From Sphingobacteriales bacterium 50-39 (lineage in GTDB: Bacteria > Bacteroidota > Bacteroidia > Chitinophagales > Chitinophagaceae), in assembly GCA_001898505.1 (NCBI GenBank), contig MKTZ01000025.1, positions 124,001-188,000 on the forward strand: DNA of 64,000 nt. Direction: 5' to 3'. The notes beneath the pieces were generated by a model, which saw nothing but the letters and a program-made list of their open reading frames with translations, searched no databases and was not told the origin of the DNA. The position numbers were made by a program, and so were the translations under genes. Shown here piece after piece: positions 44,315 to 49,924 of this stretch (position 1 is its first letter; every line of letters starts with the position of its first letter).

Positions 44315-44341
44315 AAAAAAGGGGCGTGAGCCCCTTTTTTT
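44315..44341. terminator. Bidirectional rho-independent terminator
   Basis: GGGGC-gtga-GCCCC flanked by six A and seven T; it serves the nucleotidyltransferase gene and overlaps the stop codon of the convergent protease gene. Confidence 0.88.
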
Positions 44342-45449
44342 ATCTCTTTACGATGAAGATGCAATCCTGGATTTTCTGGATCTGGTGTTCGCGGTCCAGA
44401 CCCTTGAGAGAGGACGCGAGCGGCAGCCGAATGCGACTGAGGGTACTGTCACTCTTCAGAAGGGTGCTGTCGTTCTTCATGGCATTCAGCGCCTGGAAGA
44501 TGTTCTTGCTTCGAATGGCGAAGACGAACCCTTGTACGTTCTGTTCTGTGCCCTGGACGATGCCTACAACGTCTCCGTCCTTATTCAGTACGGGAGTGCC
44601 GCTATTGCCGGGATTGGCGGGAACGGTGATCTGGCAGGTGACTGTGTCACCATTATAACCTGTCCTGGCGCTCATATAGCCTTTACCATATACGATCTCA
44701 TTACGGGGATAGCCCAGGGTGAATATCTCTTCGCCCAATTCCATACCTGTCCGGCTAATGCTATAAGGGATGGCCGGGGCCTTGAAGTTGTTGTCCTCGA
44801 TCTTCAGCACAGCCAGGTCAGTCGTGTCATTGATATAAACAAGGCGGGCATTGTATGCGCCCGAAGCATTTTGTATAGCGATGCGCGTTGCGCCTTTTAC
44901 AACGTGGGCATTAGTGAGCAGGTAGCCTTTTTGATCGATGAGGAAACCTGTACCGCCGGTGTGGTAGGGATAAGGACGAGTGGCTTCTATGATAGCGGCG
45001 TTATTGCTATCCAGCTTAATGGATACCTGGTTCAGTTTTATCTCCTGGGCTGTCAGGATCCTGTTCAGCATTTCCACCTTTTTATAGTCCCCCTTGGGCG
45101 CCACATAGGAAACGATGCTGCTGATGCCCAGGGCTGTTATGCCGGCGATGGCAGCTGCAACACCGACCACCTTTTTATATTTTTTCCAAAGGGTTATGAC
45201 CCTGGCCGGACGCTGTTCGTTGATCTCCTCTGACTCTACGAGGGCGGAGTGTATCTCGTGCAGACGGGACTTCAATTCTTTAGTCTCTCCGTATTGGTTC
45301 ATGTCATGGAGGAAGATCGTGTGCTCCACCACCATTTGGTCGACGCTGGGATTGCTTTTCCGCAGCTGTTCGAAGAACACCCTCTCATCCGGCAGCATTT
45401 CACCCCGGATGTATCGTTCGATGGCGTCCAATATGGTTATCTCATTCAT
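44340..45449 (-). CDS. Membrane-anchored trypsin-like serine protease with anti-sigma-like N-terminal region
   Basis: A 369-residue protein with three parts. Residues 1-90 are cytoplasmic and begin ILDAIERYIRGEMLPDERVF, like the N-termini of Bacteroidota anti-sigma proteins. One transmembrane helix follows (about 93-115, VVGVAAAIAGITALGISSIV). Residues 150-330 are a trypsin/S1C protease with His182 (LLTNAHVV), Asp211 (TTDLAVL) and Ser283 (GNSGTPVL). It lies eight bases after an ECF sigma gene, so it probably holds that sigma factor and responds to periplasmic stress. No PDZ domain is present, unlike DegP. The fusion of sensor, anchor and protease is unusual. Confidence 0.85.
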   Translation of the reverse strand: MNEITILDAIERYIRGEMLPDERVFFEQLRKSNPSVDQMVVEHTIFLHDMNQYGETKELKSRLHEIHSALVESEEINEQRPARVITLWKKYKKVVGVAAAIAGITALGISSIVSYVAPKGDYKKVEMLNRILTAQEIKLNQVSIKLDSNNAAIIEATRPYPYHTGGTGFLIDQKGYLLTNAHVVKGATRIAIQNASGAYNARLVYINDTTDLAVLKIEDNNFKAPAIPYSISRTGMELGEEIFTLGYPRNEIVYGKGYMSARTGYNGDTVTCQITVPANPGNSGTPVLNKDGDVVGIVQGTEQNVQGFVFAIRSKNIFQALNAMKNDSTLLKSDSTLSRIRLPLASSLKGLDREHQIQKIQDCIFIVKR

Positions 45450-45457
45450 TACGCGGC

Positions 45458-46015
45458 TTATTTTTTATACTCCTTAAATAATTTCTTCAGGCGCATGAGG
45501 CACTTGTACTTCTGGTTCTTGGCATTGTCTGCATTGGTGTATCCAAAATTGGCGGCTATTTCCACCATATTCTTCTTTTGCAGATAATAGGCCTCCAAAA
45601 GGCTTTTGCAGGGTTCACCCAGGTGCTTCATCGATTTTTCCATTACCTGGAAATCAATGTTCTTTTGTTCGTGCAGTTCCAGGTCTTCTTCTACGGGTAC
45701 GGTCTCTTCGAGCTTTTCCACTTCTGGAGAGATCCGTTGCAACTGACTCAGGCGTTTGAGCCATAGACGGCGGCATACGGAATAGAGGTAGGTCTTGATC
45801 AGGCAGTTCAATTCAAAGGAGCCGGTCTTCGCTTTTTCGTACAGCACGATCATGGCCTCCTGAAAAATATCCCTGGCATCGTCGGGAGATCCGTTGTTGT
45901 TCAGGATCAAGGACTGTACCATGTTATAATGTTGTTTATAAATGGTTTCTATCGCCTTTCGGTCGTTTTGAGCCAATCCTTCCAATAATTGCTGTTCGTC
46001 GGTAACGGTCCTCAC
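45458..46015 (-). CDS. ECF-type RNA polymerase sigma factor
   Basis: A 185-residue sigma-70 family protein. Region 2 includes AIETIYKQHYNMVQSLILNN and DDARDIFQEAMIVLYEKA; region 4 is near LEAYYLQKKNMVEIAANFGY and ends TNADNAKNQKYKCLMRLKKL. It is upstream of, and probably controlled by, the membrane protease with the anti-sigma-like region. A 204-base AT-rich region separates it from the divergent small lipoprotein gene; the promoter of both should be there. Target genes are unknown. Confidence 0.9.
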   Translation of the reverse strand: MRTVTDEQQLLEGLAQNDRKAIETIYKQHYNMVQSLILNNNGSPDDARDIFQEAMIVLYEKAKTGSFELNCLIKTYLYSVCRRLWLKRLSQLQRISPEVEKLEETVPVEEDLELHEQKNIDFQVMEKSMKHLGEPCKSLLEAYYLQKKNMVEIAANFGYTNADNAKNQKYKCLMRLKKLFKEYKK

Positions 46016-46219: not shown

Positions 46220-46429
46220 ATGAAAAAGTTCTTTTTTGTACTTGCTATCGGCGCTTTCGCAGCTTGTAACAACAGTTCCAGCACTGAAGCTAAGACTGAT
46301 TCTCCTGTAGTTAAGGCTGACTCTCCTGCTGTAGCTAAAACTGACAGCGGTGCTGTTAAGTCTGATAGCGGTGCCGCTAAGAAGGATTCTGGCGCTGCAA
46401 AGAAGGATTCTGGTGCTGCAAAGAAATAA
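46220..46429 (+). CDS. Small repeat-rich lipoprotein
   Basis: A 69-residue lipoprotein: signal MKKFFFVLAIGAFAAC with lipid Cys16. The mature part is a low-complexity chain of units such as AKTDSPVVK, ADSPAVAKTDSGAVK and KKDSGAA, rich in Lys, Asp and Ser and without further Cys. The Lys-Asp-Ser cadence recalls the KDSTM repeats of the precursor peptide at 47478. It may be an envelope spacer protein or a stress-induced product of one of the flanking sigma factors. Expression should be monocistronic, since a terminator follows. Confidence 0.75.
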   Translation: MKKFFFVLAIGAFAACNNSSSTEAKTDSPVVKADSPAVAKTDSGAVKSDSGAAKKDSGAAKKDSGAAKK

Positions 46430-46511: not shown

Positions 46512-47108
46512 ATGACAGAACGGCACGAACAAGCTTCTGGTGATACAAAGAATGACACTCATGTTGTATTCAGATCATGGGTAACCTCTTATACGGACAA
46601 TATGTATGCCTGGGCATATAGCAAGGTAGCAGACAAATCTATGGCAGAGGACCTGGTACAGGAAACGTTCCTCTCCGCCTACCAGTCCTTTGATAAATTC
46701 CGATCGGACAGCAGTCCGAAGACTTGGCTTTTCTCCATTCTCAACAACAAGATCATCGATCATCTTCGTCAAAAACTCAAAACACAGGCATTTTCTCAGG
46801 ACACCGCTTTTTTTGAATTGTATTTTGACCGGTGGGAGCACTGGCAAAGATCCGAGCGCCCCCGAGAATGGCAGGAAACTGATCTTAATCTATTGGATAA
46901 CAGTGACTTCAGAAATACTTTGAAAAAATGCATGGAAAACCTGCCCCTCCAATGGAATGCGGCGGTGCAATTAAAATACCTCGAGCAAAAAGACGGTCAG
47001 GAGATCTGTCAGGATTTACAGATTTCCCCGTCTAATTTCTGGCAACTCATACATCGTGCAAAATTGCAGCTTAGGAAATGTCTTGAATTGCACTGGTTTA
47101 AAAAGTGA
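46512..47108 (+). CDS. ECF-type sigma factor of the MNIO/bufferin-like operon
   Basis: A 198-residue sigma-70 family protein. Region 2 is WVTSYTDNMYAWAYSKVADK, then MAEDLVQETFLSAYQSFDKF; FRSDSSPKTWLFSILNNKII is the classical core. Region 4 is near MENLPLQWNAAVQLKYLEQK and DGQEICQDLQISPSNFWQLI. The anti-sigma gene follows after three bases. Together they head a group that continues with an exported Cys peptide, DUF692, DUF2063 and DoxX genes, so this sigma factor probably switches on the metallophore-like peptide. Bufferin operons of other phyla are also under ECF control. Confidence 0.9.
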   Translation: MTERHEQASGDTKNDTHVVFRSWVTSYTDNMYAWAYSKVADKSMAEDLVQETFLSAYQSFDKFRSDSSPKTWLFSILNNKIIDHLRQKLKTQAFSQDTAFFELYFDRWEHWQRSERPREWQETDLNLLDNSDFRNTLKKCMENLPLQWNAAVQLKYLEQKDGQEICQDLQISPSNFWQLIHRAKLQLRKCLELHWFKK

Positions 47109-47111
47109 CGT

Positions 47112-47387
47112 ATGAAGCGATTGATGAATATTATTATGCTCAGCTGCCGGAAAGCTACCGAACTCATCGAGAAGCAGCTGTATTTCGGCTTATCTCCCCT
47201 GGAAAAGGCGAAGCTGCGCATGCATATGCTGATGTGCGACTATTGCACCCGTTATAAAAAACAAAGTCTGTTCCTGCATGAGCTGCTTAGCGGGCATGAT
47301 CACGATCATTCTACGTTGGACATTTCCGGAGTCGAAGAAAACGCACCACTTAAAGATAAGATCATCAAGCAAATAGATAAATTTTAA
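47112..47387 (+). CDS. Zinc-finger (zf-HC2-like) anti-sigma factor
   Basis: A 91-residue soluble protein. The anti-sigma zinc-finger pattern is HMLMCDYC, with His38, Cys42 and Cys45, preceded by LSCRKATELIEKQ (Cys12), the usual ZAS layout. No transmembrane helix is evident, so it may act as a cytoplasmic redox or metal sensor that frees the ECF sigma. The C-terminal HDHDHST segment adds three close His residues and could bind metal. It is three bases after the sigma gene. Confidence 0.85.
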   Translation: MKRLMNIIMLSCRKATELIEKQLYFGLSPLEKAKLRMHMLMCDYCTRYKKQSLFLHELLSGHDHDHSTLDISGVEENAPLKDKIIKQIDKF

Positions 47388-47403
47388 GAAAAAGTTCCAC
47401 TCC

Positions 47404-47477
47404 TGTTGTCAGGTCCGTTCCATTTCTCCGACTATTCTTTCAAAGTCTATTATTATTTATCACAAAACCTGACAACA
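47404..47477 (+). promoter_or_regulatory. Long-range perfect inverted repeat ending at the precursor-peptide AUG
   Basis: TGTTGTCAGGT (47404-47414) and ACCTGACAACA (47467-47477) are exact complements, 52 bases apart. The right arm occupies the 11 bases directly before the ATG at 47478. If both arms are transcribed, the stem would bury the initiation region; if transcription starts between them, they could be operator half sites. Confidence 0.6.
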
Positions 47478-47798
47478 ATGCAAAGCAAAAAGAAAGGTCT
47501 TTTATCCGGCAGTCTCATCGCCGGCGTATTATTAGCCAGCACTTCATTGAACGCAGAACCTGCCCGCGCCTTCCGGTTCGAAGAGCTGGGGTCCGGTGAT
47601 CATGTTCGTACAGAGTTGCTTTCGCGTAATGCCAGCCTCGAACTGAAATGCAGCAAAGACTCTACGATGGCCAAGAAAGGCAAAGACGGTAAATGCGGCG
47701 AGGGCAAATGCTCTGGCAAGAAGAAGGGTATGATGAAGGATAGCACTATGAAAGGTAAGGATGGCCATTGCAGCGCGAAGAAAAAGTCCGGCAATTAA
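47478..47798 (+). CDS. Bufferin/HvfA-like Cys-containing precursor peptide
   Basis: A 106-residue exported peptide, start at 47478 because this gives the signal peptide (LLSGSLIAGVLLASTSLNA, cleavage near residue 26). The leader part FRFEELGSGDHVR resembles the FxxxxLxSG region of Bacteroidota and proteobacterial MNIO substrates. The core has Cys58, Cys73, Cys78 and Cys98 in a Lys/Gly/Asp-rich chain with two copies of KDSTM...GKDG-x-C (60-73 and 87-98) and an EGKC element, related to the EGKCG motifs of HvfA. It is followed by a terminator and then by DUF692, DUF2063 and DoxX genes. Likely product: a modified copper-binding peptide. Confidence 0.78.
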   Translation: MQSKKKGLLSGSLIAGVLLASTSLNAEPARAFRFEELGSGDHVRTELLSRNASLELKCSKDSTMAKKGKDGKCGEGKCSGKKKGMMKDSTMKGKDGHCSAKKKSGN

Positions 47799-47813
47799 CC
47801 TTTAATCCGCCTT

Positions 47814-47847
47814 CTACAGGCAGGTCAACATCTGCCTGTAGTTTTTT
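47814..47847 (+). terminator. Intrinsic terminator/attenuator between precursor peptide and DUF692 gene
   Basis: A perfect ten-base stem CTACAGGCAG/CTGCCTGTAG with an eight-base loop and six T. The enzyme genes follow only 22 bases later, so partial read-through would give much more precursor than enzyme. Confidence 0.85.
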
Positions 47848-47868
47848 CCAACTTTTAAATCACAGCAT

Positions 47869-48696
47869 ATGGTCGGTATCGGCTTTAGAAAGGACTTTGC
47901 AGATCAATTCCTGAATAGTACCACCCTTCACCCGGATTTTATCGAAGTATCGCCGGAGAACTGGATTGGTGTCGGCGGCTACTGGAAGAAAATGCTTTAT
48001 AAGGCGCTTGACAAATATCCGTTGTTTACGCACGGGTTATCGCTCTCCCTTGGAAGCCCGGATGAGCTCGATCTGCCTTTTCTGAAGAAGACAAAGCAGT
48101 TCTTGAAGGACACGGGCGCGCGACTCTTCTCGGAACATTTGAGTTATGCCAAATGCGACAACGCCCATTTATACGACCTCCTTCCGATGCCTTTTACAGA
48201 GGAGGCCATCCGGCATGTCAGTCAGCGTATCAGGCAGGTACAGGATGTACTCGGTGATCGGATCGCCATCGAGATCGTCAGCTATTACACACCCGTGGCT
48301 CCGGAAATGGATGAGATCGAGTTTGTCAACGGCGTACTGGAATTGGCGGACTGTCGGCTCCTGCTGGACGTGAATAATGTATACGTCAACAGCTTCAATC
48401 ATCACTACGATGCCAAAGCTTTTATCGATGCCTTGCCGCTGGATCGTATCAGATACATCCATATGGCCGGACATGAACAGGTGGAAGAAGACCTGATCCT
48501 CGATACCCATGGACAGCCCATCGCGAACCCGGTATATGACCTGTTCGGTCATGTGATGTCCAAACTAAATGACGAGGTGCCGGTACTGCTCGAAAGAGAC
48601 TTCAATATCCCGGAGCTGTCCGAATTACAACAGGAACTCGACCGCCTTGCATCCATAAAAGCAATAAAAAGAAATACCTATGCCATCGCCGGTTAG
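47869..48696 (+). CDS. DUF692 multinuclear non-heme iron oxidative enzyme (MNIO, BufB/HvfB-like)
   Basis: A 275-residue TIM-barrel protein of the DUF692/MNIO family, which uses two or three iron ions to modify cysteines in precursor peptides (MbnB, TglH, HvfB, BufB). The expected ligands are all visible: His55 (THGLS), His90 (SEHLSYAKC), Glu135 (AIEIVSYY), Asp167 (LLLDVNNVYVN), His198 (YIHMAGHE), Asp212 and His214 (DTHGQ) and Glu242 (LLERDFN). The N-terminal GIGFRKDF and EVSPENWIG are diagnostic. The gene follows the Cys-peptide gene and overlaps the DUF2063 gene by 17 bases. Confidence 0.93.
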   Translation: MVGIGFRKDFADQFLNSTTLHPDFIEVSPENWIGVGGYWKKMLYKALDKYPLFTHGLSLSLGSPDELDLPFLKKTKQFLKDTGARLFSEHLSYAKCDNAHLYDLLPMPFTEEAIRHVSQRIRQVQDVLGDRIAIEIVSYYTPVAPEMDEIEFVNGVLELADCRLLLDVNNVYVNSFNHHYDAKAFIDALPLDRIRYIHMAGHEQVEEDLILDTHGQPIANPVYDLFGHVMSKLNDEVPVLLERDFNIPELSELQQELDRLASIKAIKRNTYAIAG

Positions 48697-49435
48697 TACT
48701 ATTAGCCAACATCAATCCGCACTGGCAAGATACTGCCGGACGGGGAGCTATGAGCCTATCCCGGGCGTGCGGCACCGGCATGTAATACGTTACAGGGAGC
48801 TGGTCTATAATGTCGTGGAGGACATTCTTCAGTCGGCCTACCCATTGACTTATGAACTCCTGTCATCAGCAGAATGGAACGACCTGGTTGATCGATTTCT
48901 CTCTGAGCATTCCTGCCGCTCGCCCCAGGTCTGGCGCATGCCGAAAGAGTTATACGACTTTGTCAAAAAGGAGGGAACCCCCTTACTCTCCCAATATCCC
49001 TTTCTCCTGGAATTGCTTTATTTCGAATGGTTGGAAGTGGAGTTATTCATGATGGAAGACAAAAAGGCAAGCCACACTTCAAAGGGAGATGCTGCCAGTG
49101 ATGCTCTGGTATTGAACCCCGAACACATCCTGCAACATTTCCATTATCCTTTACATCGGAAGACAGCAGCGCAAATCTCAGACGAAGACAAAGGGGATTA
49201 TTTTCTGGTGATGTTTCGTCACCCGGGATCGGGGAGCGTTCAATTCATGGATCTTTCGCCGGCGCTGGTATACCTGGTTGAACAGCTCGCTATCGCGCCA
49301 GTCCGGGTGACGGAACTGGCAAAGGAAGTTTGTGATGCGTTGAACGTGCCTTTTCAGGACGACACCCTGTCGGACATACTCACATTCATAAATCGCTGCC
49401 TGGATAATAAATTGATCCTGGGATTTAAAGCTTAA
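48680..49435 (+). CDS. DUF2063 (BufC/HvfC-like) partner protein
   Basis: A 251-residue protein. The first 100 residues form the helical DUF2063 domain (SALARYCRTGSYEPIPGVRH, HVIRYRELVYNVVEDILQSA, PLTYELL). The C-terminal part (about 150-250, YFLVMFRHPGSGSVQFMDLS, then PALVYLVEQL) resembles the PqqD-like peptide-recognition fold reported for HvfC. It should present the precursor peptide to the DUF692 enzyme. The ATG lies 17 bases inside the DUF692 gene, so synthesis is coupled and probably equimolar. Confidence 0.88.
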   Translation: MPSPVSTISQHQSALARYCRTGSYEPIPGVRHRHVIRYRELVYNVVEDILQSAYPLTYELLSSAEWNDLVDRFLSEHSCRSPQVWRMPKELYDFVKKEGTPLLSQYPFLLELLYFEWLEVELFMMEDKKASHTSKGDAASDALVLNPEHILQHFHYPLHRKTAAQISDEDKGDYFLVMFRHPGSGSVQFMDLSPALVYLVEQLAIAPVRVTELAKEVCDALNVPFQDDTLSDILTFINRCLDNKLILGFKA

Positions 49436-49444
49436 ACTACAATT

Positions 49445-49924
49445 ATGAAGAAGATAGTCCAATACTATTATAAGTGGATCATACAAATCAACAGACTCAG
49501 GGGCTTCCCGCTGTTGTTCATAAGACTTGTGCTGGCCTACGGCTTCTATATGCCGGCCAAATTGAAGTGGGCGGACGTCGGCGGCGCCATCGACTGGTTC
49601 AAAAATCTGGGAATTCCCGCACCGGCCTTCAATGCCTACCTCGTTGCTTCAACGGAGGCAGCGGGTGTCATCCTGCTCATCCTGGGCCTGGGCACCAGGA
49701 TAATTGCCATACCCCTTATGATCAGCATGCTGGTAGCGATCAGGACGGTGCATTGGGTCAACGGCTTTGAGGCAGGCAATAATGGTTTTGAGATACCGCT
49801 CTATTATCTGCTCATGCTGTTCGTATTGCTCGTTTATGGTGGCGGGAAATTCAGCCTTGACCGGGTCATGGATGGAAAATACGGAGTGGTTCCGGATAAC
49901 GGTCGTAACTTGAAGCGCGTATGA
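49445..49924 (+). CDS. DoxX family membrane protein (BufD/HvfD-like)
   Basis: A 159-residue inner-membrane protein with four helices, typical of DoxX. It begins with an amphipathic part, then LLFIRLVLAYGFYMPAKLKW, IDWFKNLGIPAPAFNAYLVA and LILGLGTRIIAIPLMISMLV. A DoxX gene closes most HvfABCD and bufferin operons, where its role is unknown (perhaps redox coupling or export). The start follows the DUF2063 stop by nine bases. A CTAATATcATATTAG palindrome lies just after the stop. Confidence 0.88.
   Translation: MKKIVQYYYKWIIQINRLRGFPLLFIRLVLAYGFYMPAKLKWADVGGAIDWFKNLGIPAPAFNAYLVASTEAAGVILLILGLGTRIIAIPLMISMLVAIRTVHWVNGFEAGNNGFEIPLYYLLMLFVLLVYGGGKFSLDRVMDGKYGVVPDNGRNLKRV

Follow-up and report, generated by a model that had tools for sequence, protein, structure and literature searches.

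The stretch of DNA analysed here, hereafter the window, comprises 64,000 nt of contig MKTZ01000025.1 (positions 124,001 to 188,000) from the genome of Sphingobacteriales bacterium 50-39, a member of the Bacteroidota. Six genes lie in a row on its forward strand between positions 46512 and 49924, encoding an extracytoplasmic function (ECF) sigma factor, an anti-sigma factor of the zinc-binding (ZAS) type, an exported peptide with several cysteines, a DUF692 enzyme of the multinuclear non-heme iron-dependent oxidative (MNIO) class, a DUF2063 partner protein and a DoxX membrane protein. A first-pass annotation had proposed this row, and all of its open reading frames (ORFs) are found at the place and on the strand that it gave. 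The same annotation missed, in its reading of the regulation, two predicted sigma promoters, which are listed below together with the genes.

46512..47108, + strand: ECF sigma factor, 198 aa (Sigma70_r2 66.7 bits, r4_2 34.4 bits)
47007..47034, + strand: predicted intragenic sigma-dependent promoter (-35 TGTCAGG at 47007-47013, 15 nt, -10 CGTCTA at 47029-47034)
47112..47387, + strand: soluble ZAS anti-sigma factor, 91 aa (antisigmaE model, conserved Cys/His)
47407..47434, + strand: predicted sigma-dependent promoter of the biosynthetic genes (-35 TGTCAGG at 47407-47413, 15 nt, -10 CGACTA at 47429-47434)
47478..47798 (stop included), + strand: precursor peptide, 106 aa (Sec-type signal, Lys-Cys motifs)
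47869..48696, + strand: MNIO/DUF692 enzyme of the HvfB family, 275 aa (PF05114, NF003818)
48680..49435, + strand: DUF2063 partner, HvfC/PME1-like, 251 aa (PF09836; the ORF overlaps the end of the MNIO gene)
49445..49924, + strand: DoxX membrane protein of the HvfX family, 159 aa (HvfX model)

We read this locus, with a probability of roughly 0.78, as a captophorin-type MNIO operon for a ribosomally synthesized and post-translationally modified peptide (RiPP) that carries a built-in negative feedback loop. The kind of operon is already known, and its new part, as judged from the sequence, would be the regulation: a sigma promoter located inside the sigma gene.

The relatives used for comparison come from a one-per-species genome scan, which gave 136 stretches encoding MNIO relatives, the best 80 of which were examined. 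In the window, the intragenic motif lies within the codons of region 4.2, in frame with C-Q-D-L-Q-I-S-P-S-N, starting 102 nt before the end of the sigma gene and ending 78 nt before the anti-sigma ATG. Its strict form (TGTMAGG-N15-CGWCTA, that is, TGT[AC]AGG, 15 nt and CG[AT]CTA) is present in 30 of 62 sigma genes, and in 26 of these it stands exactly 102 nt from the gene end. Since this protein segment is conserved, the null model drew synonymous codons at random by the codon use of each locus while keeping the protein sequence, and it expects the motif in only 0.34 genes. The excess persists when a single gene is kept per cluster (66 genes, five of them from a later sample, with the fragment L045 dropped): 21 of 51 genes against 0.28 expected below 80% identity, 15 of 42 against 0.26 below 70%, and 9 of 27 against 0.20 below 60%. 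Each half of the motif is also enriched on its own among the 42 genes below 70% identity, the -35 part occurring in 37 (6.9 expected) and the -10 part in 18 (1.3 expected). A blind scan of codon columns, setting aside those with only two informative codons, ranked motif codons +7, +1 and +8 as the most biased, both with all genes and down to 70% identity, while at 60% other columns mix in. When spacers from 10 to 21 nt were tried in the 62 sigma genes, 15 nt was the only one to occur. The strict motif was not found in the other genes of these operons (0/62 anti-sigma, 0/80 MNIO, 0/80 partner and 0/60 DoxX genes; 282 in total), nor in seven other nearby sigma ORFs. Synonymous codons of the sigma gene are thus under selection at this position, which is strong comparative evidence for a putative embedded sigma-dependent promoter, one that would drive the expression of the sigma factor's own inhibitor.

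The second motif, which ends 44 nt ahead of the peptide ATG, was recognised without reference to the sigma gene. Upstream of the peptide, 37 of the 59 loci that have a sigma gene nearby carry the strict pattern, versus 1 of the 14 that do not (Fisher p 1.8e-4, kinship ignored), and a second pattern is carried by 35 of 59 versus 3 of 14 (p 0.016), four further loci that could not be classed being left aside; shuffled sequences yield 0.1% and 0.6% for the strict and the second pattern. Both patterns are too tight for several -10 variants, and the counts were kept unchanged. The intergenic motif also fits the consensus reported for the Neisseria sigma-E (GTMAGBWTT and CGTCTAAH with a 12-13 nt spacer; PMC2893595), and the gonococcal operon carries TGTCAGT-N15-CGTCTA ahead of doxX (L139), with one letter changed and the same spacing. 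Both motifs of the window are candidates for recognition by the operon's own sigma factor.

There is a further relation between the two sites. The fourth base of the -35 element, either A or C, is the same in the intragenic and the intergenic copies in 46 of 47 loci (A/A 33, C/C 13, A/C 1; 13 of 60 loci were left out for lack of one site), and within the sigma gene this base sets a Lys or a Gln codon, so that the promoter change and the change in the sigma protein have moved together. It may be that both promoters required the base change and the protein was altered with it, or else that the residue change altered the preferred base. This suggests, tentatively, a self-referential gene, whose product would read the codons of its own DNA-reading domain as a promoter, a double duty that may have shaped the protein. 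However, all 13 C/C loci belong to a single clade of the MNIO tree, the 25-row clade of the window, and kinship alone could explain the agreement, maybe through a single event. This clade is composed of Chitinophagaceae, Sphingobacteriaceae and metagenome bins; within the tree of 83 proteins, the window MNIO pairs with that of L009 (81% identity). L009, L026 and L075 fall among the Bacteroidota in this tree though labelled Beijerinckiaceae, Patescibacteria and Saccharibacteria, and are probably misbinned.

In the 7.9-Mb genome to which the window belongs, the pattern TGTMAGG-N14..16-CGWCTA has two sites, both in the operon (reversed control, 5), and a search for a large sigma regulon with the strict pattern brought up only these two. 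Strict or near-strict sites do occur within 500 nt upstream of SelR (MsrB) genes in 5 of 30 fetched loci, against 0 of 30 for the reversed control; these loci were taken from 53 SelR matches listed across 32 genomes, and one of them, L178, offered only 119 nt of upstream sequence. Two more SelR-linked sites follow from coordinates (G070 and G075), the gene of G075 being SelR by Pfam (L097). Other sites adjoin peroxiredoxin and cytochrome b561 genes (L106) or precede an ArsR-MerT pair (L108). The msrAB gene is a reported target of both the Neisseria (PMC2893595) and the Haemophilus (PMC7907618) homologues. Two side observations belong here. In Daejeonella, a Cys-rich gene of the MerC family, which hints at mercury, lies between the anti-sigma and the precursor genes (L018, 3586-4194, the same as L110, 1965-2570), and two divergent copies of the motif, offset by 44 nt, precede an MsrB gene and a lipoprotein-like gene in L098 (G077, contig C10, 86796-86867).

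The operon is a Bacteroidota version of the known captophorin/oxazolin-type MNIO cluster. Pfam and NCBIfam scans lend family support to five of the six proteins, the exception being the peptide, with its weak matches to HvfA models. As the first-pass annotation anticipated, the enzyme, the partner and the DoxX protein match the DUF692, DUF2063 and DoxX families by hidden Markov model (HMM) comparison, and its proposal of an ECF-controlled MNIO RiPP operon of the HvfABC(X) type is confirmed by these scans together with the gene neighbourhoods. Of the 80 relatives, 77 are labelled Bacteroidota or Ignavibacteriota and all have the partner gene. In every one of the 79 judgeable loci, the MNIO gene is directly preceded by a Lys-Cys precursor ORF (77 of the 80 recovered by HMM, plus L017 and L032 by pattern search; L052 is cut by a contig end), which argues against a chance arrangement; the annotation had named an unlinked peptide gene as the result that would speak against it, and the neighbourhoods showed the opposite. 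A same-strand sigma and anti-sigma pair stands upstream in 58 of 75 judgeable loci, and DoxX downstream in 56 of 78. Closer to the host, the distribution is patchy, because PF05114 is matched at E 0.001 in only 5 of 57 other genomes (32 of the same genus), always more weakly than by the single match of the own genome. In even samples, each of which counts the own genome, 7 of 394 genomes at phylum level encode an HvfB-type enzyme above the cut-off, as do 20 of 395 at class level and 10 of 396 at order level.

Among the regulators, the best NCBIfam match of the sigma factor is TIGR02943, at 143 bits and below the cut-off of 162. The anti-sigma factor scores 55.4 bits with antisigmaE (cut-off 50) and 19.1 bits with zf-HC2, under its cut-off of 22.2. 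It carries Cys12 and the motif H38-x3-C42-x2-C45 and has no transmembrane segment, with a highest 19-residue hydropathy of 0.51. The upstream Cys and HxxxCxxC are conserved in 64 of 64 aligned homologues, gonococcal MseR included, and the Cys residues of MseR are reported to matter for its activity (PMC2893595). After the zinc motif there is a His-rich stretch, HDHDH (47295-47309), which we considered as a conserved metal sensor and dropped; only a minority of relatives share it with the window, so that it cannot be called general. The same or a similar stretch appears in the anti-sigma factors of L009, L011, L013, L015 and L018, as a possible metal site.

The MNIO matches PF05114 with 321 bits and the HvfB model NF003818 with 377.2 bits (cut-off 360). 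The iron ligands listed by the first-pass annotation, His55, His90, Glu135, Asp167, His198, Asp212, His214 and Glu242, all stand at those numbers and do not vary in any of the 83 aligned MNIOs, but the list was not complete, for Asn169 and Asn170 were left out; these two, as well as Asp244, are equally invariant, the roles of all these residues being assigned by homology. Either Asn169 or Asn170 should match HvfB Asn175, a predicted site-3 ligand (PMC13419390). In the Lys-Cys group of MNIOs, an Arg-Arg and an Asp-Phe pair have been described as specificity residues, in FonB numbering (PMC13097082). The window enzyme has Asp244-Phe245 (Phe kept in 79 of 83) and Arg7-Lys8 (second position Lys in 59 and Arg in 24 of 83), the correspondence with FonB being deduced from motifs. 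The partner protein scores 58.8 bits with PF09836 and 39.5 bits with NGO1945_C; a profile of 17 partner sequences matches PDB 3dee (E 1.3e-9), while a search of PDB with the single sequence gave no match. The DoxX protein reaches 117.7 bits with the HvfX model (cut-off 80).

The precursor peptide has a Sec-type signal, as judged from hydrophobicity, a conserved segment LGSG..VR, and four cysteines: Cys58 (ELKCS), Cys73 (DGKCG), Cys78 (EGKCS) and Cys98 (DGHCS). A Pfam scan of the peptide gave no family match and no DUF2282, and with a second HvfA model it scores 13.4 bits (cut-off 19.5). The 77 relatives with an HMM-found precursor all contain [ED][GAH]KC[GSA]; their precursors have from 3 to 10 cysteines, most commonly four (31 of 77), and the most frequent 5-mers are EGKCG (119), DGKCG (74), DAKCG (35) and EAKCG (21). 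Characterised MNIO-partner pairs of the Lys-Cys group install 5-thiooxazoles on Lys-Cys motifs, with a mass change of -4 Da per modified site; FonBC fully processed a DGKCG substrate, a small residue after the Cys being preferred, and 5-thiooxazole peptides of this group bind copper (PMC13097082). Because the Asp-Phe pair of the group is present, and DGKCG is processed and a small residue after Cys favoured elsewhere, Cys73 and Cys78 appear as the likeliest targets. With the ecf/mseR operon of Neisseria as the closest relative in architecture, the expected chemistry would be 5-thiooxazoles at Lys-Cys and the expected role copper buffering; a copper role is plausible by homology. A shift of either -2 or -4 Da at Cys had been anticipated, and -4 Da per modified Cys is the prediction that stands, not -2. 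The suggestion that a Bacteroidota host and a different core peptide could mean a new product was not borne out. The host gives no cause to look for new chemistry, since operons of this type are frequent in the relatives from Bacteroidota and Ignavibacteriota, and the core motifs DGKCG and EGKCS closely resemble known substrates. We likewise dropped the idea of a modification so far unseen in the family, for which the motifs and specificity residues give no ground.

We can then propose how the loop may work. The sigma gene would be transcribed from a promoter outside the loop: the motif stands upstream of sigma in just 1 of 58 loci, which argues against autoregulation and for a sigma supply set by another promoter. 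By analogy with MseR and RsrA-type homologues, the cytoplasmic ZAS anti-sigma factor would hold the sigma factor until oxidation or a metal displaces its Cys/zinc site. The freed sigma factor would fire both promoters, which do not differ in their -35/-10 elements or in their 15-nt spacing. One of them would give the peptide, MNIO, partner and DoxX, and the embedded one extra anti-sigma factor, shutting off the response; in this gene order, sigma itself would stay outside the loop that the two internal promoters form. MNIO and partner would turn Lys-Cys motifs of the exported peptide, most likely at Cys73 and Cys78, into 5-thiooxazoles capable of binding periplasmic copper(I).

Other readings have to be weighed against this loop. 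The embedded motif might be a by-product of the conserved protein sequence of region 4.2 (C-[KQ]-[ED]-L...SN), devoid of any promoter function, given that it does sit in a conserved segment, that C-K-E or C-Q-E/D already dictates part of its -35 letters, and that the strict form is missing from half of the sigma genes. Yet a null preserving protein and codon use gives 0.34 genes against the 30 seen, the most biased codon columns down to 70% identity are those of the motif (+7, +1, +8), and the embedded spacing equals the intergenic one, with no other spacing seen, all of which make a by-product very improbable. TAAGGA resembles a Shine-Dalgarno core, and the case for the embedded element is built on sequence comparison, so that it could work at another level, for instance as an RNA element, as a pause site or by binding a different regulator. 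In the window, however, 78 nt or more separate the element from the anti-sigma start, a distance too great for ribosome loading, and the two-part motif recurs with identical spacing ahead of peptide genes, of some MsrB genes and, with one letter changed, of the gonococcal operon, as well as in the paralogous sigma gene of L092, where MNIO is absent from the fetched stretch; we regard a function at another level as unlikely. Another reading concerns what the peptide is for. A main role in oxidative or reactive-sulfur defence, in keeping with DoxX, MsrB and peroxiredoxin, or against mercury or other metals instead of copper, is a possibility to be taken seriously though not the one we favour: motif sites precede MsrB genes and the ArsR-MerT pair and lie near the peroxiredoxin and cytochrome b561 genes, the L018 operon (L110) includes a MerC gene, and the Haemophilus homologue is reported to be involved in the hypochlorite response (PMC7907618). 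Against it stands the copper binding of 5-thiooxazole peptides from the same MNIO group (PMC13097082), and the copper and the oxidative or other-metal roles are mutually compatible.

Several observations weigh against a captophorin-type operon with a sigma-driven feedback loop. The strict embedded motif is missing from 32 of 62 sigma genes, and Flavobacteriales-like loci (L041, L043, L046, L048, L147, L148, L157, L159 and L160) keep the -35 half with a decayed -10 half; in L041, L043, L046 and L048 the intergenic site was not found either. Later samples added 23 sigma genes, seven of them with the strict motif, although 16 of the 23 share 92-100% identity with genes sampled before. Among the seven later genes below 70% identity (L127, L146, L149, L153, L160, L198 and L199), five have the -35 half and two the -10 half, both halves occurring only in L199 and neither in L127; the per-gene chance rates taken from the synonymous-codon test are about 0.16 (-35 half), 0.03 (-10 half) and 0.005 (both). 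Seventeen of the 75 judgeable loci have no same-strand upstream sigma/anti-sigma pair, though in L024 and L029 the pair is on the other strand, in L045 sigma is in two pieces and in L060 the anti-sigma is a fragment. The strict pattern gives 55 hits in the 32 genomes searched from named relatives, versus 41 for the reversed control, so that isolated hits elsewhere mean little without context, and no motif was found at the single SelR (MsrB) gene of the own genome. On the protein side, the peptide falls far short of the curated HvfA model (16.9 bits, cut-off 95), and the partner narrowly misses the HvfC model (138.3 bits, cut-off 142).

Paralogues and rearranged loci bear on the same question. 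The paralogous sigma gene of L118 lacks the embedded motif and so counts against the loop; in L092 a paralogous sigma/anti-sigma pair has it, with MNIO absent from the 3-kb stretch fetched. The L092 pair adjoins a gene for a small exported protein that contains Cys and matches no Pfam family. The order in L127 is sigma, precursor, MNIO, partner, DoxX and, at the end, a weak anti-sigma-like ORF, the only such ORF of the locus; the lack of the motif in its sigma gene is what would be expected of an element whose role is to serve an anti-sigma gene placed right after sigma.

Around the operon of the window, a small lipoprotein-like ORF with KKDSGAA repeats (46220-46429) lies directly 5′ of the sigma gene and matches the PG1828 lipoprotein family below threshold (28.6 of 50 bits). 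On the minus strand, divergent from the operon, a second sigma-like gene is followed by a membrane-anchored trypsin-like protease (44340-46015; by eye, from the ORF list).

The interest of the locus is twofold. Lys-Cys thiooxazole metallophores, so far mostly known from Pseudomonadota, would be extended by this operon to a large and uniform branch of Bacteroidota and Ignavibacteriota with a regulator attached, through which natural inducers could be tested in harmless soil species. The embedded promoter would also be a testable case of one DNA stretch serving as both the code for a transcription factor and the binding site of that factor, and codon-level conservation may expose feedback promoters missed by searches limited to intergenic regions.

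Among known systems, the first-pass annotation had pointed to the bufferins Buf1/Buf2 of Caulobacter, which share the MNIO, DUF2063 and DoxX core, a Sec-exported Cys peptide and the expected copper buffering. Membership in this group was rejected: the MNIO scores 269 bits with the BufB model against a cut-off of 310, it bears the Asp-Phe pair of the Lys-Cys group, and bufferin precursors have DUF2282 or 6/12 Cys, whereas the window peptide has four cysteines and no DUF2282 hit. Sigma and NrsF genes are reported in Buf1 but not in Buf2 clusters (PMC12452194), and the anti-sigma factor of the window is ZAS, not NrsF. The oxazolin system of Haemophilus influenzae (HvfABC + DoxX, RpoE2/HrsE) has an HvfB-family MNIO, an HvfC-like partner and an HvfX DoxX as here, and an ECF sigma factor with a small ZAS anti-sigma factor in both; its sigma pair lies apart from the doxX/hvf genes (PMC7907618), while the pair of the window is adjacent, and the window precursor scores far below the curated HvfA cut-off.

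The nearest architectural relative is instead the ecf/mseR operon of Neisseria (NMB2140-2145, NGO1948-1943; gonophorin), with the same six kinds of genes, near-identical promoter letters and identical spacing. There, doxX comes first and the sigma and anti-sigma genes last, and the six genes, sigma included, form a single autoregulated transcript with positive feedback (PMC2893595). In the window the sigma and anti-sigma genes come first, and in place of one polycistronic autoregulated operon there is one predicted promoter inside sigma and another before the peptide. The embedded motif of the window sigma gene was not found in the ecf gene of N. gonorrhoeae, nor in an Acinetobacter plasmid. 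Two N. gonorrhoeae records of about 2.17 Mb, NZ_CP119142.1 (L139) and NZ_CP119140.1, are filed as plasmids and, judged by size, look like chromosomes.

In the openly licensed papers that our searches on promoters within sigma genes found, we saw no report of a region 4.2 location, a conservation across two phyla or a link to this operon. The closest experimental precedent for the embedded promoter is sigH-rshA of Corynebacterium glutamicum, where the anti-sigma gene alone is transcribed from a sigma-dependent promoter that lies within the sigma coding region, with start points 62 and 66 nt ahead of the anti-sigma gene and a shut-off loop proposed (PMC3489674). That case belongs to a different phylum, has different promoter letters and was shown by experiment in one species, whereas the putative promoter described here is deduced from codon-level conservation in Bacteroidota and Ignavibacteriota, falls in region 4.2 and is linked to an MNIO operon.

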